Of a stretch of DNA of 64,000 nucleotides, positions 46,926 to 62,353 are shown piece after piece. The translations under genes were made by a program, and so were the position numbers. Origin of the DNA: Candidatus Limiplasma pullicola (GTDB lineage: Bacteria > Bacillota > Clostridia > Christensenellales > Aristaeellaceae). Each line of letters begins with the position of its first letter. Positions within the stretch are counted from its first letter, which is position 1. The notes beneath the pieces were generated by a model, which saw only the letters and a program-made list of their open reading frames with translations, did not search any database and was not told where the DNA came from. Location: contig DVIV01000044.1 of NCBI GenBank assembly GCA_018710985.1, positions 1 to 64,000 on the forward strand, written 5' to 3'.

Positions 46926-47432
46926 TCGCAGCCAAAAGGCGCGGCGGGTGTTGACCCGCCGCGCCGCAGACCGTTGAAAAACCCTTTCCGGGAGGTTTGG
47001 AGGGCCCGCAGGCCCTCCAAAGTGAATTCGTATCGCCCGGCTTTTCCCGGTCGCTCAATCTTCGCAGAGGGTGCTACCCGCACCCTCTGCTCGTTTCGCT
47101 CCCTCGCAAATATCGGCGTTCTGCGCGCAGCCCTTGTATTTGCTCACGCCTTCAAGTCGCTTTGCCACCTTCGGTGGCAAGTGCCCCGGTTGCTCAATCA
47201 TTCGCGCTTCCCTAACGGTCGCGCTCATGGTTTCGCTGCCCCGCTTCGGGTCGCTTTGGGCCTTCGGCCCAAGTGCCCACAGGGCACACGCTTCCCTCCG
47301 GTGCCGGGCGGGCGGGGAGTTTGCGCCCTTGGGCGCAAACATTTCTTAAGCCTTTGGCGGAAAAGGCCGCCGCAGGCGGACTTTTTCGACAAGCTGAAGC
47401 GCGGCGGGTTTTCACCCGCCGCGCTTCTTTAT
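46926..47432. repeat. Hairpin-array intergenic element between convergent genes
   Basis: This 507-bp stretch holds no supportable gene; the ORFs through it are GC-rich shadows without SD. It carries at least eight perfect hairpins: 46938-46965 (12-bp stem), 46996-47021 (11 bp), 47064-47090 (11 bp), 47162-47180, 47256-47272, 47274-47286, 47319-47340 (10 bp) and 47396-47427 (14 bp). The first and last share the same palindrome, GCGCGGCGGGT-n4-ACCCGCCGCGC, so the element is bounded by matching hairpins. A degenerate unit around GCTCAATC occurs twice (near 47053 and 47193). Confidence 0.75.
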
Positions 47433-57536: not shown

Positions 57537-58648
57537 GCAGCCGCATCGGACGCATGCTGTCCATCCAGATTTTCGGCGAGAGCCACGGGCCCGCCGTGGG
57601 CGTGACGCTCGACGGCCTGCCCGCGGGGTTCGCCCTTGACACGGATGCGCTGAACGCCTTTTTGCAGCGCCGGGCAGCGCGCGGCAGCGCCATCGCCACC
57701 GCCCGGCGTGAAAGCGACCTGCCGCGCATCGTCAGCGGCCTCAGGGACGGCGTGACCACCGGCCAGCCGATGACCGCCCTGTTTGACAACGCCGACACCC
57801 ACAGCGCGGATTACGGCTTTCTGCCCGACCGTCCGCGCCCCGGCCACGCCGATTATCCCGCCTGGGTGCGCAGCGCCGGGTTTGATGACCTGCGCGGCAG
57901 CGGCCATCACAGCGGCCGACTCACCCTGCCCTATGCCTTTGCGGGCGGCGTAGCCCTGCAGCTGCTTTCACGCGAGGGCGTGCGCGTGGGGGCGCATGTG
58001 CTGGCCATCGCCTCCGAGCGGGATGATGCGCTCGATTCCCTCCGGCCGGACATGGACGCGCTTTCGCGCTGTCATGCCCAGCCCGTACCCACGCTGGACC
58101 CCGAAGCCGGAAGCCGCATGTACGCCGCCATCATGGAGGCCCGCGCCGCGGGCGATTCACTGGGCGGCGTGGTGGAATGCGCCGCGGTGGGCCTGCCTGC
58201 GGGCCTGGGCGCGCCCTTTTTCGAGGGGGTGGAGGCCGTCATGGCCGCCCAGCTGTTTTCCATTCCTGCGGTCAAGGGCGTCGAATTCGGCGCGGGCTTT
58301 GGCGCGGCCGTCCTGCGCGGCAGCGAGTACAACGACCCCTATGTGATGTCGGACGGCCGGGTGGCCACCGCGCGCAACAGCGCGGGCGGCCTGCTGGGCG
58401 GCCTTTCAAACGGCATGCCCATCGTCGTGCGGGCTGCGTTCCGGCCCACGCCTTCCATCAGTCTGGAGCAGCAAACCGTCTCCCTCTCCCAAAAAGCGCC
58501 GGCGGCGCTCGCCGTGCGCGGCCGTCACGACCCCTGCGTGGCCGTGCGAGCCGTGCCCGTGGTGGAGGGCGCGGTGGCGCTGGCGCTGCTGGAGCTTTGG
58601 CTGGAGCGCCGCGCCTCTCTGCCCCTGACCGCGCGGGAGGGCTTATGA
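57533..58648 (+). CDS. aroC: Chorismate synthase
   Basis: 371 residues from the ATG at 57533, overlapping the aroA stop; the track begins 21 codons inside aroA. AroC makes chorismate from EPSP with reduced FMN. The family motifs are FGESHGPAVGVTLDGLPAG, SDLPRIVSGLRDGVTTGQPM, HADYPAWVRS, DLRGSGHHSGRLT (the variant of GGGRxSAR seen in Clostridia) and the late GLSNGMPIVVRAAFRPTPSI, RHDPCVAVRAVPV. The next gene starts in its stop codon. Confidence 0.93.
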   Translation: MSSRIGRMLSIQIFGESHGPAVGVTLDGLPAGFALDTDALNAFLQRRAARGSAIATARRESDLPRIVSGLRDGVTTGQPMTALFDNADTHSADYGFLPDRPRPGHADYPAWVRSAGFDDLRGSGHHSGRLTLPYAFAGGVALQLLSREGVRVGAHVLAIASERDDALDSLRPDMDALSRCHAQPVPTLDPEAGSRMYAAIMEARAAGDSLGGVVECAAVGLPAGLGAPFFEGVEAVMAAQLFSIPAVKGVEFGAGFGAAVLRGSEYNDPYVMSDGRVATARNSAGGLLGGLSNGMPIVVRAAFRPTPSISLEQQTVSLSQKAPAALAVRGRHDPCVAVRAVPVVEGAVALALLELWLERRASLPLTAREGL

Positions 58649-60003
58649 TGCAGAAAAACCAACGCCTGCGCCTGCGCTGTGAGCGTCTGGGGAGCGAGCT
58701 GGAGGGCGTATGCCTGCATGAGGGCATGCCCGTATTCGTGCCCGGCGTGCTGCCCGGCGAGGAGGCGGACGTGCTGTGTGTCAAGGCGCAGCCGCGTTAC
58801 GCCTTTGGACGGCTGATCGAGGTGCTCACCCCCTCGCCCGACCGCGCCGACCCGCCCTGCCCGGTCTACGACCGCTGCGGCGGATGCAGCGGCCAGCACA
58901 TGCGCTACGAGGCCACCCTCGCCGCAAAGCGCGCACAGGTATTCGACTGCCTGACCCGCATCGGGGGCCTTTCGCTTGAGCCGGAGGATGTGCCGCCCGT
59001 CCTGGGTGCGGAGCATCCATGGCGCTGCCGCAACAAAACGGCCCTGCCCGTGGGCGGCACGGCAGACGCGCCGGTGCTGGGCTTCTACCGCCGCCGCAGC
59101 CACCAGATCGTGCCCATTGACGACTGCCCGGTGGCCATGGGTGGCCTTACGGGCGTGATTTCCGCTGTGAAGGAGTGGATGCGCGCCGAGCGTGTCCAGC
59201 CCTACGATGAAGAAACCGGACGCGGCCTCCTGCGCCACGTGGTCACGCGCGTCTCGCGCGCGGGCAGCCTGATGGTGGTGCTCACGGCCACGCGGGCCAA
59301 ACTGCCCGGCGTGCCCAGCCTCGTCGAACGGCTATCGGCGCGCGCGCCGGGTTTTTGCTCCCTGCATGTGAGTGTGAATGCCGGGCGCAACAACGTCATC
59401 CTGGGCCGTGAGAGCCACCGGCTCTACGGCGAGGACGCTATCTTTGAAACGTTGCTGGGCCTGACCTTTGAAATGCCGCCGCTCTCGTTCTTTCAGGTCA
59501 ACCCTGACCAGACCGAGCGGCTCTATCAGACCGCGGTGGATTTTGCCGCGCTCGCTCCCGGCGACGTGGCCGTGGACGCCTACGCGGGCGCGGGCACGCT
59601 GTCGCTGTGTCTGGCGCGTCACGCCTCGCGCGTCATCGGCATCGAGATCGTGCCGCAGGCCGTGGAGGGCGCGCGACGCAACGCCGCGCGCAACGCCGTC
59701 GCCAACGCCGAATTTCACGTCGCCGCCGTGGAGGACCTGCTCCCCCGGTTGGTCGCGGACGGGCTTCGTCCCGACGTGATCCTCCTCGACCCGCCCCGCA
59801 AGGGCGTGGAACCCGCCGTCATCGACGCCGTGCTGGCCGCGCGCCCCCGCCGCGTGGTCTACGTGAGCTGTCACGTCCCCACCCAGGCGCGCGACGTACA
59901 GCTCCTCGCAAACGGCGGCTACCGCTTCGAGCGCTGCCAGCCCGTGGACATGTTCTGCTACGCCGGCGGCGTCGAAAACGTCCTCTCCCTCTCCAGGGTG
60001 TGA
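58645..60003 (+). CDS. RlmD/RlmCD-type 23S rRNA (uracil-C5)-methyltransferase
   Basis: 452 residues. Either of two adjacent ATGs (58645, 58648) may be used; GGGAGG is 4 or 7 bases upstream. An N-terminal TRAM-like beta-barrel (residues 1-60) is followed by an Fe-S Cys set, CPVYDRCGGCSGQHM with a later Cys. The SAM methyltransferase then follows: SFFQVNPDQTERLY, VDAYAGAGTLSLCLA, LDPPRKG and the catalytic YVSCHVPTQ (usually SCNPAT). It transfers methyl from SAM to U in 23S rRNA. Its position after aroC appears incidental. Its TGA is the first triplet of a 29-bp terminal inverted repeat. Confidence 0.9.
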   Translation: MMQKNQRLRLRCERLGSELEGVCLHEGMPVFVPGVLPGEEADVLCVKAQPRYAFGRLIEVLTPSPDRADPPCPVYDRCGGCSGQHMRYEATLAAKRAQVFDCLTRIGGLSLEPEDVPPVLGAEHPWRCRNKTALPVGGTADAPVLGFYRRRSHQIVPIDDCPVAMGGLTGVISAVKEWMRAERVQPYDEETGRGLLRHVVTRVSRAGSLMVVLTATRAKLPGVPSLVERLSARAPGFCSLHVSVNAGRNNVILGRESHRLYGEDAIFETLLGLTFEMPPLSFFQVNPDQTERLYQTAVDFAALAPGDVAVDAYAGAGTLSLCLARHASRVIGIEIVPQAVEGARRNAARNAVANAEFHVAAVEDLLPRLVADGLRPDVILLDPPRKGVEPAVIDAVLAARPRRVVYVSCHVPTQARDVQLLANGGYRFERCQPVDMFCYAGGVENVLSLSRV

Positions 60004-60268
60004 CCAGGGGGTGACCCCCTGGACCCCCGGACTGCCCGCCCGGCGGGCGGGCAGGGGGCGCAGCGGGTTGCAGAAAAGAAACGACGCCCGGTGGCAGAAG
60101 GCCACCGGGCTTGTTGCCGCCGGAGGGCAGAAGGCCCTCCGGCTTTATGATGCGGAAAACGGGTGCCAAGGCAGGTACGGGAAAGCAACCCCCATCGCCC
60201 GCGGGAACGGCCTCTGCTCTCTACGGTCTCCCGGCGGAGCGGGGGTCCAGGGGGTCACCCCCTGGTCA
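60001..60268. repeat. 268-bp element with 29-bp perfect terminal inverted repeats
   Basis: The first 29 bp (60001-60029, beginning TGACCAGGGGGTGACCCCCT) occur again exactly, inverted, at 60240-60268. Each copy contains its own hairpin (CCAGGGGG-TGA-CCCCCTGG). Inside are further perfect stems: 60032-60054, and the twin 10-bp hairpins 60086-60110 and 60119-60143, both with the loop AGAAG. The TGA that starts each repeat is the stop codon of the methyltransferase on the left and of the BlaR1-like gene on the right. No transposase is present. It resembles a MITE or a REP/BIME-type intergenic element. Confidence 0.85.
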
Positions 60269-62353
60269 GCCCCTGGGTTCGCCGGTTTTGCCGTCGAGCT
60301 CGACGCTCCAGAGTATGTTGTGCGTGCCTTTTTCACAGATGTAGACGGACCAGTAGACGGGCTCGCTGTAGCCCAGACGATAGAAGCCGGAGTAGAGGTC
60401 CAGTTCATCGGCGGAAACGGCGGCGTCGCCGAGGGCTTGGGCGTAAGCGTCCAGCGCGATCTGCTCGGCCTCCTCCAGCGGGAGGTCATCCTCGCCGGGC
60501 AGGATATAGTAGTGGTCGTGGCTGCCCAGATACATCTCCTCCAGCTGCCCGTACCAGGCCTTGTCCTCCACGGACCAGAACTCCATCGGCACGTTCTCTC
60601 CGTATTTGGAAGCCATGATGCTCAGCAGACGATTCAGGTTGCGGTCGTGGTCGTACTGGATGCGGGTGGTGCCGCTGAAACGGTCGGGCAAGAGGTCGTA
60701 GAGCAGGGTGTCCGCCTCGTCGGAGAGCGCCGCGTCCTCCATGAGCATGAACATGCCCTCCCCTTCCAGGGAAACGTGCAGCCAGTAGTCCAGCTGACCC
60801 AGCACCGATACCCCGGCGCCGTCGCGCTCCAGCGCGGCCACGTCGGATTCGCGGTGGTTGAGGGTGTACAGGGTGGTGAAGCCGGATTCCTCCCCAGCCG
60901 CCAGCGTAGCGGCCGGAAGCGTTTCCGCCGGCTTTTCGTACACCAGGTCGCGCAGGGGCATCCAGCCCGGAATACCGGAGGTATCGCCGTCCCCGGCGAT
61001 GAGCACGCGGGCCCAGTTGGGCTCGCCCTCCACGCTGTTCCATTCCGGAAGGGCGCTGCTCTCGCACAGCTCAACCACAGTAACGGGCGTGCCGTTGAGA
61101 TAGATGCCCATGGGGCAGTTCACGTCATTGGCGCTGGGGTCCGGCAGGAGCACGGTTCCCACGCCGTCCGCGGCGTGTACCCAGGCATTCGTCGGAAGGG
61201 CGAAGCCGTCCTCCTCGACCATCGCCAGCGCGCCGCCCAGCACGGCCGTCAGGGCCAGCGCCAGCGCGCACAGCACCGCGCCCGTGCGGCGGCGTCCCTC
61301 CATGATGGCGGTGAGGCGGCGCTTCATGCCGTTGCGCCCGCCGTAGAACGACGTGCACAGGGCGGTGCGGGCGCGCGCCTGCCTCCGGATGACGCGCAGG
61401 ATGGTTTCGGAATAGAAGCGGCGCTCCTCCTCATCTGCGCGGGCGGTGACATGGCTGTCGCAGGAAGCCTCCTGATAGAAGCACAGGGAGCGCCCCATGG
61501 CCCAGACCAGAGGATTGTACCAGTGCAGGGCGTAGGCCAGCACCAGTCCGGCCTTGACCAGAAGATCCCCGCGCCTGAGATGCGTCAGCTCGTGCCGGAG
61601 GACCAGCACCAGTTCGTCGGTGGTGAGTTCCTCATCCGGCAGCAAAATCACGGGATGCAAGAAGCCCATCAGCATGGGGCTGGATACCGTGGGGCACAGG
61701 CGCAGGGCGACCCGGCGGCGAATGCGCATCTCCGACAGGCAGGCTTTCAGCGTGGCGGTATAGCCCTCCGCCTCGCAGGGCATCTGCCAGCGGCGCACGG
61801 TGCGCGCAAAGCGCAGGTGGCTCACCGCCGCCAGCGCCAGCACCGCCGCCGCGCCCGCCAGCCAGATCCACGCCAGCACGGAGAGCCAGTCCACGGGGAT
61901 GACAGCCTTTGCCGAAGCGCCCTGCTCCCCCTCCACGGCCGCGAGCGTCAGGTCTGCCGTGGCCGTTCCGGGCCTATTCTCCACATTTGCATGCTGAGCG
62001 TCGACACCGGTCCGGACAGGCTGATGAGCGGCCTGCCCGGCGGCAGACGCCTGTACAGCCGATGGCGCCTGCATGGCCTCCGCCAGCTGGGTTTCGGCGC
62101 TCGGCGGGACTGCGGTTGCCGCGCTGCCTGCGACGGGCCGCGACAGCGCCTGCGGAAGCTCCACCGTCATCAGCGGGCGGCTCGCCAGCAGGCTGAAGGG
62201 AATCAGCAGGCCCGCCAGCACCACCACCCAGACACGGTACAGCCCGCGCGGGCCGTAGCGCTTTCCGAGCAGCGGCAGCAGCGCTAGGTAGACCAGCGCC
62301 AGCGCCGACAGGCCCGCGCCTGTGCAGGCCATGGCCAGAAAATAGCCCTTCAT
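60266..62353 (-). CDS. BlaR1/MecR1-like membrane zinc peptidase (M56)
   Basis: 695 residues from the ATG at 62353 (SD GGGAGG), overlapping the blaI-like gene by ATGA. N-terminal helices are followed by a long Ala/Pro/Gln-rich loop (about residues 65-150), then the M56 peptidase with LRHELTHLRRGD (HExxH) and YQEASCDSHV (further zinc ligand Glu/Asp). The last helix is near residue 370. The roughly 320-residue outside domain is not the penicillin-binding sensor of BlaR1: I find no SxxK-SxN-KTG set. It may sense another wall or protein signal and then cleave the BlaI-type repressor. Confidence 0.85.
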   Translation of the reverse strand: MKGYFLAMACTGAGLSALALVYLALLPLLGKRYGPRGLYRVWVVVLAGLLIPFSLLASRPLMTVELPQALSRPVAGSAATAVPPSAETQLAEAMQAPSAVQASAAGQAAHQPVRTGVDAQHANVENRPGTATADLTLAAVEGEQGASAKAVIPVDWLSVLAWIWLAGAAAVLALAAVSHLRFARTVRRWQMPCEAEGYTATLKACLSEMRIRRRVALRLCPTVSSPMLMGFLHPVILLPDEELTTDELVLVLRHELTHLRRGDLLVKAGLVLAYALHWYNPLVWAMGRSLCFYQEASCDSHVTARADEEERRFYSETILRVIRRQARARTALCTSFYGGRNGMKRRLTAIMEGRRRTGAVLCALALALTAVLGGALAMVEEDGFALPTNAWVHAADGVGTVLLPDPSANDVNCPMGIYLNGTPVTVVELCESSALPEWNSVEGEPNWARVLIAGDGDTSGIPGWMPLRDLVYEKPAETLPAATLAAGEESGFTTLYTLNHRESDVAALERDGAGVSVLGQLDYWLHVSLEGEGMFMLMEDAALSDEADTLLYDLLPDRFSGTTRIQYDHDRNLNRLLSIMASKYGENVPMEFWSVEDKAWYGQLEEMYLGSHDHYYILPGEDDLPLEEAEQIALDAYAQALGDAAVSADELDLYSGFYRLGYSEPVYWSVYICEKGTHNILWSVELDGKTGEPRG

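Follow-up and report, generated by a model that had tools for sequence, protein, structure and literature searches.

Mycobacterial interspersed repetitive units (MIRU) are short intergenic repeats that are associated with overlaps of TGA stop codons with start codons and form tandem arrays. REPs are found near the 3′ ends of convergent genes, occur in groups of several hairpins and are documented to donate stop codons; the ends of GTAG REPs often give a TAG stop to the flanking ORF (PMC3733652). In E. coli, ribosome stalling is reported at REPs that lie no more than 15 nt from a stop codon, as cited in PMC12306157.

Here we analyze a window (the whole stretch of 64,000 nucleotides studied) from Candidatus Limiplasma pullicola, in which two convergent genes end in facing palindromes. 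We consider it probable, and the best explanation of the whole, that each gene carries at its stop one copy of a REP-like 3′-end repeat that occurs throughout this genus of uncultured, gut-type Clostridia on many unrelated genes. The repeat would consist of a core palindrome, P1 (CCAGGGG-nTGAn-CCCCTGG), followed by ACCCC, to which full units would add a second hairpin, P2, and often a third, P3. What look like 29-bp inverted ends would be two copies of this repeat facing each other, and two back-to-back AGAAG-loop hairpins between them would terminate transcription from both sides.

The repeat resembles GTAG/CGTC REPs in being a short dispersed palindrome, in lying at 3′ ends and between convergent genes, in forming multi-hairpin groups and in supplying stops. 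It differs from GTAG REPs in its stop codon, which is TGA or TAA instead of TAG and occupies a single fixed phase, either within the loop or immediately ahead of the hairpin. As with the translation-regulating REPs of E. coli discussed in PMC12306157, many genes have a stable hairpin at their stop or just past it; unlike those stop-proximal REPs, the repeat either begins at a distance of exactly 0 or encloses the stop in its hairpin. Our comparisons establish its anatomy, dispersal and orientation, its stop-codon phasing and, relative to orthologues, the replacement of C-termini. The sequence family and its exact stop-codon phasing appear to be new; the kind of repeat, REP-type, is known.

Anatomy of the convergent locus

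The features of the locus are as follows.

58645..60003, plus strand: tRNA/rRNA (uracil-5-)methyltransferase (TRAM and PF05958), C-terminus ENVLSLSRV-stop
59993..60003, plus strand: half-copy of the core palindrome, CCAGGGTGTGA, bearing the methyltransferase stop
60004..60022, plus strand: P1, left copy, core palindrome CCAGGGGGTGACCCCCTGG, 0 nt past the stop, then ACCCCC
60032..60054, plus strand: P2 hairpin of the left unit, CTGCCCGCCC-GGC-GGGCGGGCAG
60086..60110, minus strand: hairpin GCCCGGTGGC-AGAAG-GCCACCGGGC, followed in the minus-strand reading by GTCGTTTCTT; terminator-like for BlaR1 transcription
60119..60143, plus strand: hairpin GCCGGAGGGC-AGAAG-GCCCTCCGGC, then TTTATG; terminator-like for methyltransferase transcription
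60197..60241, minus strand: second module of the right unit (CTCCGCCGGGAG..CCCGCGGGCG), boundaries approximate
60247..60265, minus strand: P1, right copy, core palindrome, 0 nt past the BlaR1 stop
60266..60276, minus strand: half-copy CCAGGGGCTGA, bearing the BlaR1 stop, codons for PRG-stop
60266..62353, minus strand: sensor of the BlaR1/M56 peptidase type, its C-terminus truncated when compared to five homologues

As the first-pass annotation had noted, perfect 29-bp inverted repeats (60001-60029 and 60240-60268) hold the stops of both genes: the methyltransferase frame (PF05958) stops at TGA 60001-60003, inside the left arm, and the BlaR1/M56 frame (PF05569) at the minus-strand TGA 60268-60266, inside the right arm. 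Across 20 block-shuffled windows, the longest arm pair within 300 bp was 16 bp. The accompanying statement that each end begins with TGA held in so far as the stops are in the arms; the repeat does not start at the stops, since imperfect arms run on into both genes (59993-60036 and 60233-60276; 44 nt, 89%). Each stop sits inside a half-copy, and the full palindrome then starts without a gap. The fold of the 268-nt stretch has a z of -10.

The twin hairpins with identical AGAAG loops, also described in the earlier reading, have 10-bp stems. A terminator scan of the locus returned one match per strand, precisely these two hairpins, with 0.2 expected. They have the GC-rich stem followed by a U-rich tail of an intrinsic terminator, with tails that are weak in U, and constitute a putative back-to-back bidirectional terminator. 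By fitting the terminator pattern on each strand they resemble bidirectional intrinsic terminators between convergent genes; in contrast to those, they are flanked by repeat copies and have U-poor tails. The pair is unique to the window locus. We had also considered AGAAG-loop hairpins as a genome-wide class, as the earlier reading suggested, and abandoned this: GGCAGAAGGCC was found seven times in the genome, with a 10-bp stem only at the window locus.

Dispersal and unit structure of the core repeat

The genome contains four core copies, two at the window locus and two elsewhere. One of the latter directly follows a 2-oxoacid:ferredoxin oxidoreductase gamma gene at its stop (C18:103916; AGRTRG-stop), the other an HD-domain-type gene (C12:3006; DELSRSTRG-stop). 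Both are single copies in the orientation gene-stop-repeat, one per gene. No partner faces either of them, so that the most fitting reading of the window locus is a pair of copies, each belonging to its own gene.

The earlier suggestion of a dispersed intergenic class was borne out by these two further genes and by relatives of the organism. The core consensus in congeners is CCAGGGG-nTGAn-CCCCTGG-ACCCC, and the core plus ACCCC was present in 17 of the 100 relatives searched (own genome included; draft metagenome assemblies), while a reversed control pattern gave no matches among the same 100. The richest genomes contain about 196, 53, 31, 26 and 24 core copies, found by an exact core pattern that sets their apparent conservation; because sister species have several of them in common at the same gene, the number of events is below that of copies. 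Rfam covariance models gave no match at E<=1 for five representative loci, viral contigs had no match to the core with a TGA loop, and a literature search for the core letters or for Christensenellales repeats returned nothing relevant.

Kinship with an element near 47 kb, which the first-pass annotation had placed in the same class, found no backing: the core palindrome has no match there at up to 3 mismatches, so that this sequence does not unite them in one class. The 47-kb intergenic region is flanked by two near-identical long hairpins (GCGCGGCGGGT..ACCCGCCGCGC; window positions 46938-46965 and 47396-47427), about 430 bp apart and without sequence kinship with P1.

In most units of three copy-rich genomes (G004, G008 and G015), P2 follows P1, and P3 lies between GACCGCC and GGCTCGC. 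Complementary P2 stems come in 15 different sequences across 21 units, and P3 likewise has many. Because these stems differ and yet remain complementary, pairing is kept while the sequence changes. In G004, P2 is followed by a run of T and is terminator-like; the hairpins in the window resemble P3 of other units (L090). The second module of the right unit resembles what follows P1 at the oxidoreductase gene and the HD gene. Outside the window locus the second module differs among units, and they form one cassette only in a loose sense.

Units also occur in tandem. At the HD gene, an array of about 64-bp units starts at the stop codon (L009:1008-1330). G007 has the same arrangement as the window locus plus two extra left units: its left unit is triplicated in tandem with a 99-bp period (L084:1501-1801), giving three 99-bp units compared to one in the window's own genome (G000). 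This triplication is the likely cause of a contig break there. The 64-bp and 99-bp arrays recall MIRU as generally described; unlike MIRU, the copies here follow a gene and do not bridge stop and start.

Stop-codon phasing and protein C-termini

We scored where the upstream frame ends for copies in G000, G004, G006, G007, G008, G012 and G015. Relative to P1, the upstream ORF ended at -3 in 16 copies and at +8 in 10, such that 26 of the roughly 40 gene-end copies were locked to one of these two phases. With orthologous pairs counted once, 22 of about 34 were at -3 or +8 (p about 1e-22 under a rough null, 2 of 50 positions expected). In the -3 class, the stop (TAA or TGA) directly precedes P1. 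In the +8 class, the TGA or TAA of the loop is itself the stop, read in the frame xCC AGG GGn TGA, and the protein ends in [S/T/P/A]RG. The core in these congeners is phase-locked to translation. Remaining copies were at -6 to -59 or at gene starts; in two of them (L108 and L131) the stop is immediately followed by another core, half or whole, and at L093 and L107 core copies adjoin the putative ribosome-binding site of a divergent gene, at gene starts and not ends.

Pfam matches were found for 9/10 of the +8 genes (one below the curated cut-off), several of which have a domain that reaches near the C-terminus (HSP33, TipAS, DUF3792 and sigma-70 region 4), and for 7/10 of the -3 genes tested; RNase J, PolA and UxuA are among the -3 genes. 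Stop phasing does not accompany the core everywhere, since in three genomes of other genera (G045, G048 and G059) copies of the same core are typically tens of bases from a stop, inside other hairpin chains.

Comparison with orthologues revealed how the ends of several proteins differ where the repeat is present. BlaR1 orthologues that lack the repeat, in five genomes (G015, G009, G001, G002 and G011), have a longer tail that ends PEGNG-stop. At the repeat, BlaR1 ends KTGEPRG-stop in G000 and KTGDPRD-stop in G007, with about 13-21 residues lost, including the conserved PEGNG tail. The HD protein ends DELSRS-TRG-stop at the repeat and DELSRL-stop, DELSRM-stop or DELSR-stop in congeners, and the oxidoreductase gamma protein ends AGRTRG-stop at the repeat compared to, for example, AGRELVKG-stop in congeners. 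Judged from these alignments, the repeat has evidently replaced the native C-termini of several genes (BlaR1, HD and oxidoreductase gamma). For the methyltransferase, ENVLSLSRV-stop (SRG-stop in G007) compares to ENVVSMVLE-stop, ENVLSLVRDK-stop and ENVVSLTRE-stop. Thus, of the earlier claim that insertion or gene conversion set both C-termini, the BlaR1 part stood, while in the methyltransferase the change is confined to the last 2-3 residues.

The clearest empty/filled pair is trpS. In G001, G002, G009 and G011, which lack the repeat at this gene, the protein ends KIGFAARG-stop; in G006 it has the same end and P1 lies directly after its TGA. In G015, trpS ends in the P1 loop. A homologue with the same C-terminus and no repeat, which the earlier reading would have taken as evidence against insertion, therefore exists for trpS of G006, whose native stop was left in place ahead of the added repeat, but not for BlaR1, the HD gene or the oxidoreductase.

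We also asked whether anything of the BlaR1 tail persists downstream of the right arm. There, RAEAVPAGDG matches RADAPPEGNG weakly, at about 0.04 in shuffles; since this stretch is found behind P1 at other genes as well, the reading was dropped.

Acquisition of the repeat is thus seen to change protein C-termini, and a C-terminal [S/T/P/A]RG in annotations of these genomes can derive from the repeat, not from the protein family.

Origin, rival readings and related cores

A repeat copy at each gene end would have arisen by joining either right after an existing stop or a few codons ahead of the native stop, in the latter case only in the frame in which the loop TGA ends translation as [S/T/P/A]RG-stop; such joining would have replaced the native C-terminus of several genes. 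Copies probably spread by recombination, by template switching or through some kind of enzyme acting in trans. Recombination or template switching at gene ends fits because native 3′ ends are lost. By analogy with E. coli REPs, P1 at 0 nt from the stop may act on translation termination and mRNA 3′-end stability, and the P1 hairpins at both stops in the window could affect ribosome release or mRNA ends.

It is possible, though we lean against it, that the repeat is kept as a translation-level device that slows termination or blocks exonucleases, and that selection rather than targeted joining accounts for its position. Zero-distance placement, stops within the hairpin loop and pairing conserved through changing sequence all agree with such a device, as does the ribosome stalling reported in E. 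coli where a REP is no more than 15 nt from a stop (cited in PMC12306157); absence of the repeat from the same genes in many congeners argues against it. We think it unlikely that the repeat spreads specifically to stop codons, rewriting C-termini and 3′ untranslated regions via a process that recognizes gene ends, for example RNA-templated or transcription- or translation-coupled joining. The stop-locked family is a natural set of near-identical 3′-end modules on unrelated genes, with which one can test whether hairpins near stops reach translation termination sites by targeting or are kept there by selection.

That the palindromes are classical REPs moved by a Y1-type tyrosine transposase (RAYT) is quite unlikely. 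Like REPs, they are short palindromes at many intergenic sites that prefer gene 3′ ends, and REPs lie between convergent genes and can supply stop codons (PMC3733652). However, no GTAG or CGTC tag was found beside P1, the flanks reading as a stop codon or coding sequence before it and ACCCC after it. A search with PF01797 (Y1 transposase), which gave matches in 5/14 control genomes, found no such gene in G000, G007 or the copy-rich G004, G008, G015, G039 and G045, drafts that may miss a gene; G013 has two partial matches. Since tag and transposase, two defining features of the RAYT class, were not found in these Clostridia metagenome genomes, we file the repeat as REP-like and not as a REP member.

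A single non-autonomous MITE-like transposon with 29-bp terminal inverted repeats, which on insertion gave both genes their stops, is very unlikely. Such an element would account for the perfect arms that bound the 268-bp stretch and for C-termini altered at those arms, and one element with inverted ends is how the first-pass annotation had read the locus. Against it, the other genomic copies are single arms, never paired, and their orientation follows the gene; in the window, the arms extend past the proposed ends into both genes, and reading of the 60001 and 60268 boundaries revealed no target-site duplication. In the trpS comparison the repeat lies directly behind the TGA, and what varies in G007 is the count of left units rather than whether the structure is there at all. 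Most improbable is that these are ordinary intrinsic terminators, alike by chance or by local gene conversion from one of the two gene ends to the other, and no repeat family: the center does hold a two-way terminator-like pair in which each hairpin alone is ordinary, but a 19-24-nt core recurs after unrelated genes here and in congeners, with zero control matches, and the stop phasing is far from chance.

Related cores were also encountered. A second core class, within longer repeats (..CCCCTTGAAACGA-CCAGGGGATACCCCTGGACCCC..; L089, L093, L110, L123 and L128), does not lie at stop codons and is often near contig ends in G008, G013 and G015. G039, from another genus, contains about 196 copies of a variant core whose loop, CTTTCCGATCG, has no stop codon (L025 and L038). 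In the chromosome of Desulfoluna limicola, which belongs to a different phylum, the exact 24-mer CCAGGGGGTGACCCCCTGGACCCC occurs four times (L073, L079, L087 and L088), preceded by GCCTCCGGCGG or close variants. Clostridia share the composite GCCTCCGGCGGCCAGGGG with it (L132 and L214), and the repeat core spans phyla.
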